Assembly: GCA_017643395.1 (NCBI GenBank)
Contig: JAEPNP010000004.1
Coordinates: 233,745 to 297,744 of the forward strand
Origin: Rhodothermales bacterium
GTDB taxonomy: Bacteria; Bacteroidota; Rhodothermia; Rhodothermales; UBA10348
Reading direction: 5' to 3'
Length of the DNA stretch: 64,000 bases
The notes below the pieces were generated by a model. It saw only the letters and a list, made by a program, of their open reading frames with translations, made no database searches and had not been told where the DNA came from. A program made the position numbers and the translations under genes. Shown here in pieces: positions 13,375 through 56,376 of this stretch (position 1 is the stretch's first letter; each line of letters starts with the position of its first letter).

Positions 13375-16300
13375 ATGGCGGATTTCTGCCACCTCCATTG
13401 CCATACCCAGTACTCGCTCCTTGACGGCGCAGCCCGCATCGAACGGCTTGTCGCGAGTGCCGCTGAAATGGAGATGCCGGCCCTTGCCATCACCGACCAC
13501 GGCAATCTGTTCGGGGTCCCGGAGTTCTATACCAAGGCCCGTCGCGCGGGCGTCAAGCCCATCATCGGCTGTGAGTTCTACGTCACGCCGAGTGGCATGG
13601 ATGACCGCTCCGACCGCACGCGGTATCACCAGGTGTTGCTTGCGCGTAATGAGGAGGGATATCGCAACCTGATCAGGCTCTCCAGCCTGTCATACACGGA
13701 CGGCTACTACTACAAGCCGCGCCTGGACCTGGAGGCCATTCGGGCGCACTCGGGCGGTCTCGTGGCGACGACCTGCTGCCTGCAGGGGCACGTGCCACAG
13801 ATGATTCTCAAGCAGGGCGAAGCGGCGGCACGACCGGTCTTTGAGACCTATCTGGAGATCTTCGGCAAGGACTACCTGATAGAAATCCAGGACCACGGCA
13901 TCGAGGATCAGCACCGGGCAAACGCTGTCCTGCTGAAGTGGGCCAGGGAGTACGACGTCAAGGTCGTCGCGACGAATGACGTGCACTACGTCGAGCGCGA
14001 GGACCATGCGGCCCAGGACGTGCTGCTCTGCCTGCAGACCGGCAAGGATCTCTACGATCCGAACCGGATGCGTTTTGAGAACGACCAGTTCTTTCTCAAG
14101 ACCAGCGCTCAGATGGAGGCCGCGCTGGGTTCGCTGGAACCGGACCAGCGCACGCAGAGCCTGGTGACCACGCTGGAGGTCGCGGATCGATGCGACCTGG
14201 AGCTGGAGATGGGCAAACTGCTCATGCCGCACTACCCCCTGCCGGAGCAGTTCGGCGGGGACATGGACGGCTACCTGCGCCACCTGGTGTACGAGCGGGC
14301 ACGTTCCCGCTACGGTGAATTGACCCAGGCGGTGACCGAACGGTTGGACCTGGAGCTCGGCATCATTCGCGACATGGGCTATGCCGGGTATTTCCTGATC
14401 GTGCAGGACTTCACGACGGCGGCCCGGGATCTGGGTGTGTCGGTCGGTCCCGGTCGAGGCTCGGCGGCCGGCAGCGCCGTGGCCTACTGTCTGGGCATCA
14501 CCAACATCGACCCGCTGGAGTACGATCTCCTGTTCGAGCGCTTTCTGAATCCGGAGCGCGTATCGATGCCGGATATCGACATCGACTTTGACGATCGGGG
14601 ACGGTCGAAGGTGATCGACTACGTGGTGCAGAAGTACGGCAGGCAAAATGTCTGTCAGATCATCACGTTCGGCACAATGGGCGCACGCAGCGTGATCCGG
14701 GACGTTTCCCGCGTGCTTGGCGTGCCCCTCCCCGAGGCGGACCGCATCGCCAAGATGATTCCGGAGGGACCTGGACAGTCGCTGGCGAGCGCCATCAAGG
14801 ATGTGCCCGAATTCCGGCGGCTGCTCACCGATCAGAACGAGCAGATCCGCAACCTCATGCACTACTCGCAGGTGCTGGAGGGGTCGGCCCGGCACACCGG
14901 TGTGCATGCTGCCGGGGTGATCATTGCCCCCGGCGAGGTCAGTGAGTACGTGCCGGTGGCGGTGGCCAAGGGCAAGTCAGGCGCGGACGATGTGGTCACG
15001 ACCCAGTATGACGGCAACTGGGTGGAGTCCTTCGGTCTGCTGAAGATGGACTTCCTGGGGCTGAAGACCCTTACCGTGCTGGACGATGCGCTTGCGGAGA
15101 TCAAGCGCAACCACGGAGTGGAGATCGACCTGGACGCCATTCCGCTGGATGATCCGGCCACGTTCGAGCTGTTCCAGCGGGCGGACACGGTGGCCATCTT
15201 CCAGTTTGAATCCTCCGGGATGCGCGAGTGGCTTCGCAAGCTGAAGCCCACATCGATCGACGATCTGATCGCGATGAACGCCCTGTACCGACCGGGGCCG
15301 ATGGATCTGATTCCGAACTACATCGCCCGAAAGCACGGGCAGGAGGACGTCGATTTCCCCCATGAGATGCTCAAGGAGGTGCTGGAGCCCACCTACGGGA
15401 TTCCGGTCTACCAGGAGCAGGTGATGAAGATGGCGCAGGTCATGGGCGGGTACTCGCTCGGCGGCGCCGACCTGCTCCGGCGGGCGATGGGGAAGAAGAA
15501 GCAGTCCGAAATGGACAAGCAGCGCGGCATCTTCGTGACCGGCGCGCTGGATCGTGGGGTGGACGAGAAGACGGCGAACGACGTCTTCGACATGATGGCG
15601 AAGTTCGCCTCCTATGGCTTTAACAAGTGCGTCGTGGGGTCCACGGAGATCCATGACGCAGACACCGGGCGACGCACCACTGTCGCGCAGCTCTTTGCGC
15701 AGAAGCGGCCCATGCGCATCCATGCGCTTGGTGAAGACGGCAAGCTTCGTCCCCGACGCGTCGAGGACGTGGTGTGGAACGGGGTCAAGCCCGTGTTTGA
15801 GCTTCGCACGCGCCTCGGAAATCGCATTGTTGCGACCGGAAACCACCCGTTCAAAACTTTCGGCGGCTGGACCAATCTGGAAGACCTCGAGCCCGGCACG
15901 CGCATCGCCGCGCCGAGGCGGCTCTCGTTTGGTGCCGAGGAGTCGTGGTCGGACCACGAACTGATTGCGCTGGGTGGGCTGCTCTCGGAGGGGAATACGT
16001 GCCATCCCACAACACTATACTTCTACAACAATGATCTCGCGGCGTGCGAGGACTTTGCTCAATCTGCTGAGCAATTCCCGAACTCGATAGCTCGCATATA
16101 CCACAGGGGTGATGGGCGACATGAGGTCGCCGTCAACACCGGCAAGGGTGGCCGCTTTCACGCGGGCCAGGTGCCCTGGAACAAGCATGGAGTAGCCGTT
16201 CGCAAGCGCGTGAGATCCGGCGCTTTCCTGTGGGCTGAGGGTCTCGGCCTGATTGGTGCCACCGCCCGGGACAAGCGCGTTCCGGATGGTGTATTCCGGC

Positions 16301-18210
16301 TATGCGATGACAACATCGCCCTGCTGCTGGGCCGCATGTGGGCGGGAGACGGCTATATCTACGGCAAGAGCTCGGCAACGCCCTACTACGCCACGTCCAG
16401 CCGCCAGCTGGCTGAAGACGTGCAGCACCTACTGCTGAGGCTGGGCATGCTCTCCCGGGTGTCGGTGAAGCGGTTCAAGTACCGGGGAGGAAAACGCACC
16501 GGCTACACGGTACACCTGCTGGGCACGGGTACCCTGCGACGGTTCCTCGACAGAGTCGCACCCCACATCGTCTGTCGGGACGCCCAGGTGGCGGCGCTTG
16601 AAGACTATGTCGCCTCAACGGACCGCGACTCCACAGCGTCCGATACGCTGCCTCGCGAGGTGCGAGACTGGGTGGCGGCAGAGCGCGAGACGGCCGGCTG
16701 GACGTGGAAGGAACTGGGTCGCCGCGCAGGAGCATCGGTGCGGGAGTTTTATGGGTCGGGGTCGTCTGGAAAGCGCGGATTCCGTCGGTCGACTGTCGAA
16801 CGGTTCGCCTGGGCCCTGGGCAGCCAGCGCCTCCTCGACGCGGCACGCTCCGACATTTACTGGGACGAGGTGGTCTCCATCACTCCCCTCGGCGAGCAGG
16901 ACACCTATGACCTGACTGTCGAGCAGGACCACAACTTTGTGGCGGACGGGCTGATTGTGCACAACAGCCACAGTGCCGCCTACTCCGTGGTCGCCTATCA
17001 GACGGCGTACCTCAAGGCCAACTACCCGGCTGAGTTCATGGCGGCGGCGCTCACGAACGAGATGTCCGACACCAAGAAGTTGTCGGTGGTGCTGGATGAG
17101 GCGAGGCATCTCGAAATCGAGATCCTGCCGCCGTCCATCAACAAGAGCCTGGCTCAGTTCACGGTGGAGAACGGGGCCGTGCGCTTTGGACTCGGCGCCA
17201 TCAAGGGCGCCGGTCTGGGGGCGATCGAATGCATCATCGAGGCGCGGGAGGAAGAGGAGGCCTTCACCTCGCTCTTCCACCTGTCGGAGTCGGTTGATCC
17301 CCGTACGGTCAACAAGAAGGCGCTGGAGTCGCTCATCCGGGCCGGTGCGCTGGACGAACTTGAAGGCCACCGCGCCCAGCTGATCGAGGCGCTTGACGGC
17401 GCCATCCAGCATGCCCACAAGGTGCAGGCAGACAAGGCGGCTGGTCAGAACTCGCTCTTCGGCCCAGCCGGCGGGGACGGCTCGGTCCTGATGCCGCCTC
17501 AATTGCCGGTCATCGATCCGTGGCCCAAGGGCCGCACGCTGAAAGAAGAGCGTGAGGTGATCGGCTTCTACGTCTCCGGGCATCCCCTTGAGGCCGTCTT
17601 GCCGGAGATCCGGGCGTTCGCGTCCACGCGCGTGGCCGACATCCCGGGCTTGTTGGCTGACGCGCCGCCTCGGGAAGACGAGCGCGGATACACGCGCGGT
17701 CCGACGCACACGCTGTGCGGCATCGTGACGGACGTCAATCACCGTCGCACAAAGACCGGCAAGCCAATGCTCACCGCCACGATTGAGGACTTCACCGGAC
17801 AGGCAGAACTGGTGGCCTTCTCAAACTCCTACGACCGGGTGCAGCGCTACCTCGAGCCCGACCAGATCGTGTTCGCTCGGGGCGAGGTCGAAATGCGTGG
17901 CGGCGCCGTGAAGATGGTCGTGCAGGATGCCACCCCGATCTGGAAAGTCCGGGATTCGATGGTGAAGTCCGTGGTGCTGCACGTGAACCCCTATGACCTT
18001 GACGAAGACTCGGTAGAGGAGCTGCACAAGCTCGCAGATGCCCACCGCGGCCACGCCAAACTCTACTTCGCGGTCGCTTTGCCCGGCATGGCGGAGCCCC
18101 AGCGCATCCTGAGCCGCACCTGCGTAATCGAGCCGAACGGCGAGTTTATGAAGGGTCTGGCACGAATCGTCGGGCGGGATGCAGTTCAAGTTGAGGGTGA
18201 CAAGGCTTAG
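13375..18210 (+). CDS. dnaE: DNA polymerase III alpha subunit precursor, interrupted by an intein
   Basis: The replicative polymerase subunit, encoded as a 1611-residue precursor; removing the 446-residue intein leaves 1165 residues, the normal DnaE length. The start ATG at 13375 gives the standard N terminus MADFCHLHCHTQYSLLDG, the PHP domain. The catalytic aspartates are in MPDIDIDFDDRGR (near residue 400). The thumb/fingers region runs up to FASYGFNK, where the intein interrupts; after it, SHSAAYSVVAYQTAYLKANYP continues the highly conserved helix. QNSLF (coded at 17446-17460) is a clamp-binding motif. An OB domain (TLCGIVTDVNHRRTKTG onward) and a C-terminal tau-binding-like region complete the protein. 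It is followed closely by the PAP2 gene. Confidence 0.96.
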   Translation: MADFCHLHCHTQYSLLDGAARIERLVASAAEMEMPALAITDHGNLFGVPEFYTKARRAGVKPIIGCEFYVTPSGMDDRSDRTRYHQVLLARNEEGYRNLIRLSSLSYTDGYYYKPRLDLEAIRAHSGGLVATTCCLQGHVPQMILKQGEAAARPVFETYLEIFGKDYLIEIQDHGIEDQHRANAVLLKWAREYDVKVVATNDVHYVEREDHAAQDVLLCLQTGKDLYDPNRMRFENDQFFLKTSAQMEAALGSLEPDQRTQSLVTTLEVADRCDLELEMGKLLMPHYPLPEQFGGDMDGYLRHLVYERARSRYGELTQAVTERLDLELGIIRDMGYAGYFLIVQDFTTAARDLGVSVGPGRGSAAGSAVAYCLGITNIDPLEYDLLFERFLNPERVSMPDIDIDFDDRGRSKVIDYVVQKYGRQNVCQIITFGTMGARSVIRDVSRVLGVPLPEADRIAKMIPEGPGQSLASAIKDVPEFRRLLTDQNEQIRNLMHYSQVLEGSARHTGVHAAGVIIAPGEVSEYVPVAVAKGKSGADDVVTTQYDGNWVESFGLLKMDFLGLKTLTVLDDALAEIKRNHGVEIDLDAIPLDDPATFELFQRADTVAIFQFESSGMREWLRKLKPTSIDDLIAMNALYRPGPMDLIPNYIARKHGQEDVDFPHEMLKEVLEPTYGIPVYQEQVMKMAQVMGGYSLGGADLLRRAMGKKKQSEMDKQRGIFVTGALDRGVDEKTANDVFDMMAKFASYGFNKCVVGSTEIHDADTGRRTTVAQLFAQKRPMRIHALGEDGKLRPRRVEDVVWNGVKPVFELRTRLGNRIVATGNHPFKTFGGWTNLEDLEPGTRIAAPRRLSFGAEESWSDHELIALGGLLSEGNTCHPTTLYFYNNDLAACEDFAQSAEQFPNSIARIYHRGDGRHEVAVNTGKGGRFHAGQVPWNKHGVAVRKRVRSGAFLWAEGLGLIGATARDKRVPDGVFRLCDDNIALLLGRMWAGDGYIYGKSSATPYYATSSRQLAEDVQHLLLRLGMLSRVSVKRFKYRGGKRTGYTVHLLGTGTLRRFLDRVAPHIVCRDAQVAALEDYVASTDRDSTASDTLPREVRDWVAAERETAGWTWKELGRRAGASVREFYGSGSSGKRGFRRSTVERFAWALGSQRLLDAARSDIYWDEVVSITPLGEQDTYDLTVEQDHNFVADGLIVHNSHSAAYSVVAYQTAYLKANYPAEFMAAALTNEMSDTKKLSVVLDEARHLEIEILPPSINKSLAQFTVENGAVRFGLGAIKGAGLGAIECIIEAREEEEAFTSLFHLSESVDPRTVNKKALESLIRAGALDELEGHRAQLIEALDGAIQHAHKVQADKAAGQNSLFGPAGGDGSVLMPPQLPVIDPWPKGRTLKEEREVIGFYVSGHPLEAVLPEIRAFASTRVADIPGLLADAPPREDERGYTRGPTHTLCGIVTDVNHRRTKTGKPMLTATIEDFTGQAELVAFSNSYDRVQRYLEPDQIVFARGEVEMRGGAVKMVVQDATPIWKVRDSMVKSVVLHVNPYDLDEDSVEELHKLADAHRGHAKLYFAVALPGMAEPQRILSRTCVIEPNGEFMKGLARIVGRDAVQVEGDKA
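15628..16965 (+). mobile_element. DnaE intein with LAGLIDADG homing endonuclease (446 aa)
   Basis: The intein starts at Cys1 (CVVGSTEI, block A). Block B is RIVATGNHPFKTF, with the TxxH motif. It ends with block F (DTYDLTVEQDHNFVADG) and block G (LIVHN), followed by Ser+1 of the C-extein. All self-splicing residues (Cys1, block-B His, penultimate His, terminal Asn, Ser+1) are present. Two LAGLIDADG-like motifs, ELIALGGLLSEG (intein residues 111-122) and IALLLGRMWAGDGYI (230-244), keep an acidic residue each, so the endonuclease may be active. A helix-turn-helix-like stretch (WTWKELGRRAGAS, near 357) could aid DNA recognition. It sits four residues downstream of the cyanobacterial split DnaE intein site. 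Confidence 0.95.
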
Positions 18211-19034: not shown

Positions 19035-19808
19035 ATGCGGAAGCTCCTTCCCCTAGTTGCAGTTTTGATCACGGCAATTCCTGCCTCAGCGCAGGATGAC
19101 GGCACCATCCTCGATGAGGTGCAGGCACTGGACCCGCTTGAGATGGACGAACTCCTCTGGATGGCGCGCGGGGTTTACTCGGAGAGCGATCGGGCCAATG
19201 AACAGGAACTCGTCGCGTGGGTGATTCGCAACCGTGTGGAAACCGGCTTTCGCGGCGACAGCTATCGCCAGGTGGTGCTTGAACGCAAGCAGTTCAGCGC
19301 CTTCAACGAGCCATCGAAACGGCGCACCTACATCCTGGGTCTCGACCAAACGGATGTCGTGCCCAGCTGGATGCGTGCCCTCGAGGTGTCGATGAAGGTC
19401 TTCCAGGCCAGCCCCACCGAGCGGCCCTTCGCCATCGATACTCGCCACTTCTACAGTCCCGTCTCCATGGTCGGTCGGTCGGAGCCCGTGTGGGCCAAGG
19501 CTGGCGTGCCGATCTCTTCCGTCTCGCTTGGTGTGGACCCGGACCGTTTTCGGTTTTTTTCCGGCATCGACAAGTCTCAGGACATGGTCGCGGCCACCGT
19601 GAATCCGACCACCTTTGCCGAGGGCGCGAGTGTCGAGGAGCGCATCGACCAGCAGAAAAGCGCGTCCGAGAAGATTGACGAGCAGCGCATCGAGCAGCAG
19701 CAGCGTGCAGCGGATCGCGCCAAAACGTTGCGGCGGAGCACCCGTGTGCGCCGCTTCAGCGGCAGGGTCCAGCGGCCGAGTCGGCCCAAGCGCGGCACCG
19801 GCGGGTGA
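19035..19808 (+). CDS. exported cell-wall hydrolase (SleB/hydrolase-2-like)
   Basis: 257 residues with a signal peptide (MRKLLPLVAVLITAIPASAQ). The domain LLWMARGVYSESDRANEQEL, VAWVIRNRVETGF, ERKQFSAFNEP matches the hydrolase-2 (SleB) fold of lytic transglycosylase-like enzymes, with the catalytic Glu expected in the YSES segment. The C terminus is a charged Glu/Arg/Gln-rich helix (EERIDQQKSASEKIDEQRIEQ) ending in an Arg-rich tail, perhaps for cell-wall binding. The start at 19035 is selected because it opens the signal peptide; the longer frame upstream overlaps the PAP2 gene. The stop codon lies inside the first copy of a short direct repeat (19798-19841). Confidence 0.75.
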   Translation: MRKLLPLVAVLITAIPASAQDDGTILDEVQALDPLEMDELLWMARGVYSESDRANEQELVAWVIRNRVETGFRGDSYRQVVLERKQFSAFNEPSKRRTYILGLDQTDVVPSWMRALEVSMKVFQASPTERPFAIDTRHFYSPVSMVGRSEPVWAKAGVPISSVSLGVDPDRFRFFSGIDKSQDMVAATVNPTTFAEGASVEERIDQQKSASEKIDEQRIEQQQRAADRAKTLRRSTRVRRFSGRVQRPSRPKRGTGG

Positions 19809-19841: not shown

Positions 19842-20220
19842 CTGAGTCCCGAGTGGGTCCAGACTACTTTACCGGCCTCGGGCCACCGGCGAAGGCAACT
19901 TTGCGCCAGGCTGCTTGCAAACCCGGCACAATTCGCGACCTGGGTTACGCTGGCTCCGGACAGCCCAGGGAGCGGAATCTGGCACCTGTTTTCCGCATGG
20001 AGCCAACTCTGGCGTTGTCACATGTGGAATCCGAGCGTCTACTCCACTCGAGGTCCGTTCCAGACCAGCGATGAGTGGAATCTGGGGGCCGTTTTCCACT
20101 CGGCGCGCCCTCGACCGAGCGCGCCAGCCCGAACCGCGCGCCACCCACGCGCCAGCCCCGCACCCCGCGCACCCACCACGCCCCCAGGAACCGCACCGCA
20201 TCCCCCCGCTTCAACCGCGC
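19809..20220. other. 412-bp gene-free stretch carrying an inverted-repeat array
   Basis: This is the only gene-free stretch over 300 bp in the window. From left to right it holds the second copy of the 23-bp-period direct repeat (to 19841), a CCTGGG...CCCAGG inverted repeat (19939-19969), the three-unit array at 19972-20100, and a proline-codon-rich GC-rich leader (20101-20220) before yidD in which no coding or promoter signal stands out. Confidence 0.7.
19972..20100. repeat. array of three imperfect inverted repeats (24-25 bp) at 51-52 bp period
   Basis: Units start at 19972, 20024 and 20075. Unit 1 (19972-19996) has arms GCGGAA and TTCCGC; unit 2 (20024-20047) begins GTGGAATCC and ends TCCAC; unit 3 (20074-20100) has arms AGTGGAA and TTCCACT. 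Each unit begins G(T/C)GGAATC. The two spacers are 27 bp each, unrelated to one another, and each contains a smaller inverted repeat (GCCA...TGGC, GGTC...GACC). Units 1 and 3 differ by a paired C-G to T-A exchange in the arms, which keeps the stem. A related array is at 51045-51174. Confidence 0.8.
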
Positions 20221-20493
20221 ATGGTGCAGCATCTGATCGCCTTGCCCAAGCGCGCGCTGATTCTGCTGGTACGTGGCTACCAGCTGATCCTTTCCCCGCA
20301 CCTGGCCACATCCTGCAACTTCACCCCCACCTGCTCGGGATACGCCATCCAGGCGCTGGAGAAGTACGGCGCGGTGAAGGGTTCCGTTCTGGCCGCGCAT
20401 CGCATCCTGCGCTGCCACCCCTGGGGCGGTCACGGCTACGATCCACCCATCTGGTACTCCGAACGCAAGGAACTCCATGAGCACGGTTCCTGA
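20221..20493 (+). CDS. yidD: membrane protein insertion efficiency factor YidD
   Basis: A 90-residue protein with the complete YidD signature: LILLVRGYQLILSP, then CNFTPTCSGYAIQALEKYG, then HRILRCHPWGGHGYDP. Three conserved cysteines are present. YidD is an inner-membrane-associated helper of YidC/SecYEG insertion. The ATG at 20221 is preferred because the frame upstream is proline-rich, noncoding-looking sequence running back through the repeat array. It overlaps moaB by 17 bp, so the two are probably cotranscribed. The usual neighbours rpmH, rnpA and yidC are absent. Confidence 0.9.
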   Translation: MVQHLIALPKRALILLVRGYQLILSPHLATSCNFTPTCSGYAIQALEKYGAVKGSVLAAHRILRCHPWGGHGYDPPIWYSERKELHEHGS

Positions 20494-51044: not shown

Positions 51045-51174
51045 GTGGGATCAAGGGCCAGTATTCCACTTCCCGGGCCGAAACAGACCGCTGCAACGTG
51101 GAATCGTACCCCCCAATTCCGAGCCGACGCCCCTGCCGAGCAGGGCGATATGGAATCCAGGTACCAGATCCCAC
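51045..51174. repeat. second array of three imperfect inverted repeats (25 bp) at 52-53 bp period
   Basis: Units at 51045-51069, 51098-51122 and 51150-51174, all 25 bp. Unit 1 runs from GTGGGAT to ATTCCAC; unit 2 begins GTGGAATC and ends AATTCCGA; unit 3 begins ATGGAATCC and ends GATCCCAC. Spacers are 28 and 27 bp and unrelated; the second holds CCCTG...CAGGG. Unit size, period and arm sequence match the array at 19972-20100, so both belong to one repeat family. It lies between two convergent gene ends. Confidence 0.78.
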
Positions 51175-54693: not shown

Positions 54694-56376
54694 TTATTGA
54701 ACGCGCTGGATATGGCTCTCGCGCTTGAAGCTGACGTCGGCACCGTCGCGCGACCAGGTCCACTGGTCCTCCTGCCGGTATGGTTCCGTGGAAAGCGTGC
54801 GCGGCGCGCGACTTCCGTAGGCACCGTAGTACCAGTCGTAGTCGTCCACGGCAGCAGAAATCGCGTCCACGCCGTAGTCCCACAGCCAGCCCTCGTCCGA
54901 CGGCAAGAGGGAGATCGGCACATGCGCCTGAGACCTGTGCGGCTTGAAGAGGCGGGAGTTCTTCTTGGTCGTCACCTTGTGACGCCGCAGGTCCACGCGT
55001 CCCACACGGTACCCGTCATCGTAGTGATAGTCGTCCAGCACGTACCCGTCGTACGCGTGGGTCGAGAGGACCTCAAACCCCGAGTAGGTGTCACCCAGGA
55101 TGAAGATCTCCCGGTCGAAGTACACTTCGCCATTCCGATAGACGGTAGCCGTCATCTCGCTCAGGCGCGCCGGCAGCCGGTCCACATAGCCGAGGTAGCG
55201 ACCGTTTTGGTACAGATCGAAACGTTCGATTTCGATGTCGATCTCGGCATAGTCGTCGTTCGCGTAGACCAGATTGTGGCTGTACACGGTCTCGACTTCC
55301 ACCTGGGCACGGGACGGTCTGCCCCGAACCACGGTTTCCACATAGACCACCTGCCGGTACCGGTAACGCGGGGCCCAGTGGCGCTGATAGCGCACCACCC
55401 ACGGCCAGTCGATGTGCACGTAGATGTTCGGGCGATGGACTCTCAGCAGACGCGGCGTGTGGTAGCGGATGCGCGGGTAGTGCGGCCGTCTGTAGACCCA
55501 GCGTCGACTGGGAGCAATCAGGCGTCGGCCGTTGCGGTGCTTGAGCTTGGAGCGCCGCCCGTCGATGCGCACACCGTGCCGGTAGTCGGCCCCGTGGCGA
55601 GGCCGGCGGCTCTCGATGCGGCCGCCATAACCTGATCCGCCCCGGCGATTGTTGTTCAACCTGCCGTCTCCGCGGCGCCGATCGTCGTCCCCGCGGCGGG
55701 TGCCCTGGCCGCGGCGGTCGTCGTCGTTCCCGCGGCGCGTGCCCTGGCCGCGGGCGTCGCCGCGCCCACGGTTGCGATCCACGGCCGTCCCGCCGGTGCC
55801 TCGATTGGGGGTTGCCCGCGTGCGGTCGTCGCGACGTGGCACCGTGGCACCACGAGAGCCACGCTCCTGCGGCGTGCTGCGCGTACGACTGTCCCGCTGC
55901 GGCGTGCTGCGCGTACGACTGTCCCGCTGCGGTGCGCTGCGCGTACGACTGTCCCGCTGCGGGGTGCTGCGCGTACGGCTATCCCGCTGCGGGGTGCTGC
56001 GCGTACGGCTATCCCGCTGCGGCGTGCTGCGCGTACGGCTGTCCCGCTGCGGCGCGCTGCGCGTGCGGCTGTCCCGCTTGGGCGCGCTGCGCGTGCGGCT
56101 GTCCCGCTTGGGTGCGCTGCGCGTACGACTGTCCCGCTGCGGTGTGCTGCGCGTGCGGCTGTCCCGCTTGGGCGCGCTACGCGTGCGGGCGCTGCTGCGC
56201 CGCTCGACGCGAGGTTTGGATTTCCCGGTGCGCTGCTCGCGCTTCTCGACCTTGGAGCCCCGTGAGCTCGTTGTTCCAGCCCGCTGCGCCACCGCATCGC
56301 CCGCCGTGGCGAGCATGAGGATCAGCGCCAGGACGAACCCGAACGCGGGTCTCGCTGCGTGTACCATCTTCGTCAT
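54694..56376 (-). CDS. exported basic protein with decapeptide RDSRTRSxPx repeats
   Basis: 560 residues. The start at 56376 has AAGGAG 8 nt upstream and opens a signal peptide (FGFVLALILMLATAGDAVAQ). Residues about 60-175 are roughly 11 tandem copies of a decapeptide of form RDSRTRS(A/T)P(Q/K), strongly basic and Ser/Arg-rich. An Arg/Gly/Asp-rich segment follows (about 175-290). The C-terminal 270 residues form a Tyr/Arg-rich, beta-type domain (YSHNLVYANDDYAEIDIEIERF, EVLSTHAYDGYVLDDYHYDDGYRVG). I do not recognise a family. The repeats could bind polyanions such as DNA, polysaccharide or polyphosphate; this is inference. Own terminator downstream. Confidence 0.75.
   Translation of the reverse strand: MTKMVHAARPAFGFVLALILMLATAGDAVAQRAGTTSSRGSKVEKREQRTGKSKPRVERRSSARTRSAPKRDSRTRSTPQRDSRTRSAPKRDSRTRSAPKRDSRTRSAPQRDSRTRSTPQRDSRTRSTPQRDSRTRSTPQRDSRTRSAPQRDSRTRSTPQRDSRTRSTPQERGSRGATVPRRDDRTRATPNRGTGGTAVDRNRGRGDARGQGTRRGNDDDRRGQGTRRGDDDRRRGDGRLNNNRRGGSGYGGRIESRRPRHGADYRHGVRIDGRRSKLKHRNGRRLIAPSRRWVYRRPHYPRIRYHTPRLLRVHRPNIYVHIDWPWVVRYQRHWAPRYRYRQVVYVETVVRGRPSRAQVEVETVYSHNLVYANDDYAEIDIEIERFDLYQNGRYLGYVDRLPARLSEMTATVYRNGEVYFDREIFILGDTYSGFEVLSTHAYDGYVLDDYHYDDGYRVGRVDLRRHKVTTKKNSRLFKPHRSQAHVPISLLPSDEGWLWDYGVDAISAAVDDYDWYYGAYGSRAPRTLSTEPYRQEDQWTWSRDGADVSFKRESHIQRVQ
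55867..56188. repeat. about 10.7 tandem copies of a 30-bp coding repeat
   Basis: On the plus strand the unit begins CTGCGGCGTGCTGCGCGTAC; it encodes the RDSRTRS decapeptide on the minus strand. Copies are nearly identical, differing mostly at two or three fixed positions (Ala/Thr and Gln/Lys), which suggests recent expansion by slippage or unequal crossing over. Confidence 0.92.

Follow-up and report, generated by a model that had tools for sequence, protein, structure and literature searches.

Dispersed triplets of palindromic sites and a linked HTH-PLD gene in genomes of the Rhodothermales

The window (the whole stretch of 64,000 nucleotides of Rhodothermales bacterium DNA that we analyzed) carries two triplets of short palindromic sites, and we found that both belong to a family of arrays that recurs in many places in the genome of origin, here called G000. 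The family is probably a dispersed element with a dedicated HTH-PLD gene, that is, a REP/RAYT-like pairing on an unrelated enzyme class, in which we infer that the protein binds, cuts and mobilizes the arrays. Taken together, the data suggest an undescribed kind of genomic repeat system. The window triplets and the genes on either side of triplet 1 are as follows:

19035..19808, + strand: gene 5' of triplet 1 (own gene caller), ending 163 bp before the array; presumably cell-wall hydrolase-like
19972..19996, no strand: triplet 1, unit 1, 25-bp palindrome GCGGAATC..TTTTCCGC (sequence and triplet scoring)
19997..20023, no strand: triplet 1, spacer 1, 27 bp
20024..20047, no strand: triplet 1, unit 2, 24-bp palindrome GTGGAATC..CTCCAC (sequence and triplet scoring)
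20048..20074, no strand: triplet 1, spacer 2, 27 bp
20075..20099, no strand: triplet 1, unit 3, 25-bp palindrome GTGGAATC..TTTTCCAC (sequence and triplet scoring)
19972-20099: whole triplet 1, equal to G000:C4:253716-253843
20221..20493, + strand: gene 3' of triplet 1 (own gene caller), starting 121 bp past the array; we take it to resemble yidD
51045..51069, no strand: triplet 2, unit 1, GTGGGATC..ATTCCAC; the whole triplet equals G000:C4:284789-284918
51098..51122, no strand: triplet 2, unit 2
51150..51174, no strand: triplet 2, unit 3, ATGGAATC..ATCCCAC

Number, geometry and placement of the arrays

The sequence does contain the three units that the original prediction placed at 19972, 20024 and 20075; they are 25, 24 and 25 bp long, and each of the two spacers measures exactly 27 bp. 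Scored against GTGGAAT..ATTCCAC in the observed spacing, triplet 1 reaches 37 of 42, as compared to a best score of 28 in 60 randomized 64-kb windows (second-order Markov). Triplet 2 (51045-51174), which is absent from the original prediction, is a class A triplet that lies between convergent genes and also scores 37 of 42. No Rfam family was found at the window locus (a single chance match, E 0.91, lies elsewhere in the stretch), and the plasmid DNA searched with this locus gave two short, weak matches. The window also holds a long ORF at 13375-18210 (1611 aa), which we take to be DNA polymerase III alpha-like, apparently with an inserted intein, and a tandem repeat at 55867-56188 (30-bp period, 10.7 copies, 91% matches) inside a called gene.

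With a covariance model made from 26 triplets (R1), we found triplets in at least 88 places in G000, two of which overlap within one longer array; these places were collapsed from at least 150 matches with both strands counted. A loose pattern gave 39 forward and 40 reverse matches in G000, as compared to 0 and 1 in the control. The original prediction had named a lack of further copies in the genome and its relatives as evidence against it, and many copies were found.

Exactly three units are present in 91 of 101 G000 arrays (counted by script in the fetched stretches, weak arrays included), with unit lengths of 25-24-25 in 53 of these and 25-25-25 in 29, and 185 of the 223 spacers in the fetched G000 stretches are 27 bp long. 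The centers of neighboring units lie 51.8 bp apart (sd 0.56; 156 neighboring pairs, 69 loci), which is about five helical turns. The element is a set of three palindromic sites of 24-25 bp, approximately 128 bp overall, and at some loci two or three near-identical triplets lie in tandem. The half-site consensus of 123 class A units is GTGGAAT. The pattern of conserved arms and variable unit middles that had been described from the window alone was borne out: the element is real, unusual and conserved. A further statement, that each spacer carries a small inverted repeat of its own, is literally true of 4-bp stems but means little, as such stems are barely above the shuffled level: stems of at least 4 bp occur in 63% of spacers as compared to 57% after shuffling (156 spacers, 69 loci), a slight excess (z 2.2), and the mean stem length was as high in 0 of 50 shuffled sets. 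Neighboring copies within 2 kb were removed for the spacing and spacer-stem counts and for the comparison of 34 triplets given below.

Among 60 genomes, its own included, R1 arrays are clear in four (G000, G001, G002 and G010), and two more genomes are marginal (E 0.03-0.04). G000, G001 and G002 belong to one genus, and G010 belongs to a different genus of the same family. A second model (R2), made from arrays with GTT-type arms, found the same four genomes among 113 in the order at E up to 1e-4; at this threshold G001 has two R2 matches alone, both on R1 sites. Both searches ran with stricter filters, at the cost of weak matches, and would miss arrays whose arms are quite different. A pattern scan of 84,980 species returned 19 stretches, of which 12 come from two relatives, 5 from a Thiotrichaceae MAG and 2 are single (L047 and L050); we set the last two aside as apparent single chance matches. 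The MAG, STC_44 (L049, L054, L057, L061 and L062), has a dispersed palindrome doublet, GTAGGGTGGAATAGCG..ATTCCACC, with a GTAG-like foot. By its look this is a different family, a classical REP doublet with a spacing that is similar by chance, and we rejected it as a member. The array family is patchy even inside one family of the order.

The arrays are intergenic, and convergent gaps are commoner than divergent ones. The 70 class A loci of G000 comprise 33 in co-directional, 24 in convergent and 10 in divergent gaps, 2 in contact with called genes and 1 located at the end of a contig, with genes called by a simple codon-usage caller; other gaps of at least 150 bp number about 40, 7 and 22, respectively (by subtraction, G000 and G010 stretches together). 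A tRNA gene is present no more than 320 bp from 11 arrays (G000 has 5 of these, G001 has 1 and G002 has 5, at 8 distinct tRNA sites), and in every case the array is 3' of the tRNA gene; the tRNA scan covered 95 sources, with class B stretches left out and the L185 array counted by its covariance-model place. The tRNA-Val, tRNA-Ser and tRNA-Glu gaps hold arrays in both G000 (L111, L132 and L120) and G002 (L184, L185 and L179), and at the tRNA-Val and tRNA-Ser gaps the arm class differs between the two genomes. These common positions may reflect inheritance, repeated insertion or concerted change. On the 3' side of tRNA-Thr(CGT), G001 has an HTH-PLD gene and an array (L170) and G002 has an array alone (L182). 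Several arrays in G000 and G001 lie about 1 kb or less from contig ends (e.g. G000:C1:718, G000:C7:148797 and G001:C69:154), as if breaking the assembly.

Arm pairing and spread of the triplet

From a paired exchange between units 1 and 3 of triplet 1, the original prediction had argued for a compensatory change and hence for selection on a hairpin. The exchange is real, but the hairpin argument fails for class A because class A arms do not covary. In 26 aligned class A triplets, 83.0% of cells are paired as compared to 83.9% after shuffling, with 4 double-change pairs as compared to 5.6 expected, and in 123 non-redundant class A units 634 cells are paired as compared to 639 expected. We rejected hairpin selection in class A on this arm pairing, which is no higher than shuffled in either set. 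Class A half-sites drift independently, like a dyad-symmetric protein site.

In contrast, the same covariation check, which the original prediction had proposed, gave pairing above the shuffled level in G002, where many arms are GTTGAAT or GTTCAAT. The 27 GTT-type units of this genome have 154 paired cells as compared to 145.8 expected (as high in 20 of 2000 shuffles), and the excess runs through position 4 (21 of 27 units as compared to 13.5; 3 of 2000 shuffles). With the two arm types pooled, the 36 units of G002 have 201 paired cells as compared to 174.8 (0 of 2000 shuffles). Arm pairing in G010 is weak (17 units, 95 as compared to 90.8; 64 of 2000 shuffles). Near-identical units were dropped before these G002 and G010 counts. 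Hairpin formation may be of importance in the GTT class of G002. Independent drift of class A half-sites and symmetric switches from one type to another are in keeping with dyad sites that are read by a homodimer whose specificity changes.

The triplet as a whole seems to be the unit of spread. A copy of the gene-linked GTT triplet of G000 is found at C3:252391, with 81% identity over 163 bp, and the likeness stops approximately 15 and 20 bp beyond the triplet edges. Two class A loci have 74% in common over 131 bp, which is the triplet itself. Among 34 unlinked class A triplets, mean agreement outside the arms is 0.412 as compared to 0.33 after shuffling, and 122 of 561 pairs reach an agreement of at least 0.45 as compared to 2.5 expected; the flanks of the 12 best class A pairs are mostly near background, with one pair higher. 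This agreement is supportive of triplet-wise spread and short of proof, because shuffling does not keep the position-specific composition.

The HTH-PLD gene and its arrays

When we compared neighbor genes across genomes, we found that one gene adjoins an array in three genomes. Its product is approximately 200-250 residues long and has a PLDc_2 domain at the C-terminal end (PF13091; of the six proteins three were scanned, with E 3.7e-17 to 6e-15). The HxKx4D and GSxN motifs are invariant in all six copies, which have mutual identities of 60-69%. The N-terminal part has predicted helices and a putative HTH, which counts as a prediction because AlphaFold, given six sequences, produced a poor model (pLDDT 60). 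The top Foldseek match of this weak model is the archaeal chromatin protein TrmBL2 (TM 0.30), which favors a binding-only role. One of three proteins matches PF11495 at 22.5 bits as compared to a cut-off of 22.2 (E 7.6e-5), and the other two are below it. The PLD domain resembles Nuc (1byr, E 5.8e-8) and is related to the DrmC and DpdK profiles, with scores below the NCBIfam cut-offs. A dedicated protein in copy-rich genomes had been suggested along with the palindromes, and the HTH-PLD gene is a candidate for it.

Among 60 genomes, G000 counted with them, the gene occurs in three, each of which bears arrays (2 copies in G000, 1 in G001 and 3 in G010). Searches of 114 genomes from the order and of 394 sampled from the phylum found it in 3 and 2 genomes, respectively; in the phylum sample, G001 is outside those listed. 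We rejected weak matches in G039 and G035, which are other PLD proteins by size and context. No HTH-PLD gene was found in array-bearing G002, a MAG that is 88% complete, and no homologues were found on plasmids, in viral contigs or, with one of the six proteins as query, in phages. Among the genomes searched, the family is restricted to a few related ones. A tree of the six proteins did not separate the classes by arm type, and the three G010 paralogs cluster at 83/87, under the support threshold.

All six genes lie within approximately 170 bp of a palindrome array with a 52-bp period, and in four the array is at or near the start. We estimate that a random gene has an array within 250 bp in about 2% of cases (about 90 loci in 4.5 Mb). 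The six genes have different neighborhoods with no common neighbor genes, and their arrays are placed as follows:

L210, L211 and L216: array overlaps the 5' region of the gene; the first usable start codon is inside a unit in L211 and L216, and the start in L210 is uncertain
L212: array approximately 100-150 bp upstream of the gene
L217/L272: palindrome 18 bp upstream of the gene
L215: array 165 bp downstream of the gene

Around the first HTH-PLD gene of G000, four separate arrays lie within 8 kb (G000:C1:1741773-1749731; L123 and L124).

The arms follow the paralog, and paralog-specific arms recur elsewhere in the same genome. The second G000 paralog (C7) has a GTT-type triplet across its start, and R2 found GTT-type (class B) arrays in at least 16 further places in G000. 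We inspected 14 of these; most are longer, with near-identical units and spacers, and every one lies in an intergenic gap (7 convergent, 6 co-directional and 1 divergent). One of the 14, the class B array L259, is under the threshold of the arm-agnostic scan, yet aligns with the gene-linked triplet. G001 has a GTGGAAT-type gene only, and no separate GTT-type array was found there at E up to 1e-4. One G010 gene has GTTGAAT arms, and a dispersed array of like type is present at G010 C40:24825.

The sharpest test of the gene-array pairing is a search with a motif from a gene leader, and the pairing passed it. We derived the palindrome CGATGTATT..AATACATCG solely from the leader of the third G010 paralog and then searched the four genomes with it. 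The motif has four copies, all in G010 (its own leader and three others), and none in G000, G001, G002 or the controls. All four copies are 36 bp long and their middles differ, though the search left the gap free between 12 and 22, and near the copies there are further units, partly decayed, at 52-bp steps.

Proposed mechanism, alternatives and known systems

PLD enzymes with one HKD motif, such as Nuc, have one active site per dimer. The HTH-PLD protein would bind the dyad as a homodimer and, as a single-HKD enzyme, would have one active site per dimer; it would nick or join at the array and in this way amplify and spread it, and an array across the gene start would provide autoregulation. 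A dimeric HTH-PLD protein on dyad sites repeated along one helix face would be a plausible nicking or joining complex. We tentatively propose, as a reading that is quite possible and less than probable, that this is a new class of mobile repeats, in which a transposase-like HTH-PLD protein uses phosphohistidine chemistry on helically phased, dyad-symmetric arrays with a 52-bp period and spreads them as triplets, with specificity that co-changes and with orthogonal pairs that coexist in one chromosome. We saw neither transposition nor cleavage, and no target duplication.

Among the alternatives, the strongest is a chromatin-like role limited to binding, in which the HTH-PLD protein would be an architectural or regulatory DNA binder, the arrays would be chromosomal sites (for chromatin, insulation or termination) spread by ordinary duplication, and the HKD motif would be secondary. 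Middles and spacers diverge, but the arms are preserved, as is the 51.8 bp spacing (sd 0.56), itself nearly five helical turns, and this long-term conservation could reflect a host function instead of selfish spread. The top fold match of the weak model is a chromatin protein, TrmBL2, and arrays overlap the gene's own start. However, the catalytic HKD residues are invariant in six of six proteins, the family has a patchy distribution even among genomes of a single family in the order, and the arm type switches with the paralog; we judge a pure host-function role to be unlikely, although it deserves serious weight.

It is improbable that the arrays are REP- or MITE-like repeats moved by another, unseen transposase, with the HTH-PLD gene hitchhiking beside them. 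Their intergenic context is REP-like, as PMC3733652 describes REPs as preferring convergent and co-directional gaps downstream of genes; in addition, dispersed copies end near the triplet, and the Y1 transposase profile PF01797 has three matches in G001. However, the transposase search, which was made with this profile, gave 0 matches in G000, G002 and G010, all six HTH-PLD genes are array-linked, and the arms vary by paralog, with the third motif predicted from its gene. The missing Y1 transposase in these three genomes also rules out REP/RAYT membership for the arrays, and no GTAG or CGTC tag common beside the units was seen by eye in the unit listing. A first lead, IS21-like ends, was rejected: no transposase is evident among the neighboring ORFs, and the triplets stand alone.

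RNA hairpins in 3' untranslated regions, which would serve termination or stability without a dedicated protein, are a very improbable explanation. Such hairpins would fit the 11 of 11 tRNA-near arrays that lie 3' of the tRNA (8 distinct tRNA sites), the folding of the - strand of triplet 1 (z -3.0) and the covariation of GTT-type units in G002. In contrast, the + strand of triplet 1 has a z of only -1.2, class A is without covariation, the window locus has no Rfam family, and 10 of 67 typed loci are divergent. Least probable of all is a use in defense, with a PLD nuclease and with arrays as a sponge, license or self mark, like a restriction enzyme without a methylase: the PLD domain is akin to the DrmC and DpdK profiles (below the NCBIfam cut-offs), but the six loci have no common neighbor genes, the arrays adjoin host genes, and no homologue was found in the phages, plasmids and viral contigs searched.

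The pairing of dispersed arrays with a dedicated HTH-PLD gene, which we favor, has likenesses in several known systems. According to PMC2817692, a RAYT gene has its own REPs on both sides and coevolves with them, and RAYT presence tracks REP abundance. The arrays resemble REP/BIME sequences with RAYT in that they are short, high-copy intergenic palindromes in clusters of regular spacing, with a preference for co-directional and convergent gaps; each repeat type has a dedicated single gene beside it, changes in the repeat go with changes in the enzyme, and the presence of the enzyme follows the abundance of the repeat. In contrast to REP/RAYT, the protein here is a PLD/HKD protein with a predicted HTH and not a Y1 HUH transposase, the array is on one side of the gene whereas RAYT is flanked by two REPs, and the palindromes, which are near-symmetric and differ in their middles, are grouped in threes at a fixed 51-52 bp period.

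PMC4081073 describes BfiI, a PLD-type enzyme, as a homodimer with one catalytic site that cleaves via a covalent enzyme-DNA intermediate. The HTH-PLD protein has the PLD domain with HxKx4D and GSxN in common with BfiI and Nuc (1byr, as above), but its predicted HTH is N-terminal whereas BfiI has a C-terminal B3-like domain, and it is an array-linked, putative nuclease. With TrmB and TrmBL2 it has in common an HTH and a PLD-like domain (the PF11495 match is just above the cut-off in one of three proteins); unlike them, it keeps the full HKD motif in six of six copies, is bacterial and is array-linked. The regular repeat and spacer geometry is also found in CRISPR arrays; here, in contrast, the arms and not the whole repeats are conserved, the arrays are dispersed triplets, and class A units are variable. 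Many class B arrays have spacers that are near-identical to one another and hence unlike acquired pieces in appearance.

The open-access literature that we searched gave no account of dispersed palindromes that are paired with a PLD protein and, to our knowledge, Y1 (HUH) enzymes are the only ones known to be dedicated to such palindromes. If the proposed pairing is true, the life style of a repeat with a dedicated enzyme would have arisen independently on a PLD nuclease, a phosphohistidine enzyme would join the chemistry of genome repeats, and several natural protein-site pairs of different specificity would exist within one genome. Because the proteins have approximately 200-250 residues and the sites 25-36 bp, it would become directly testable how short repeats acquire and retain a cognate enzyme.
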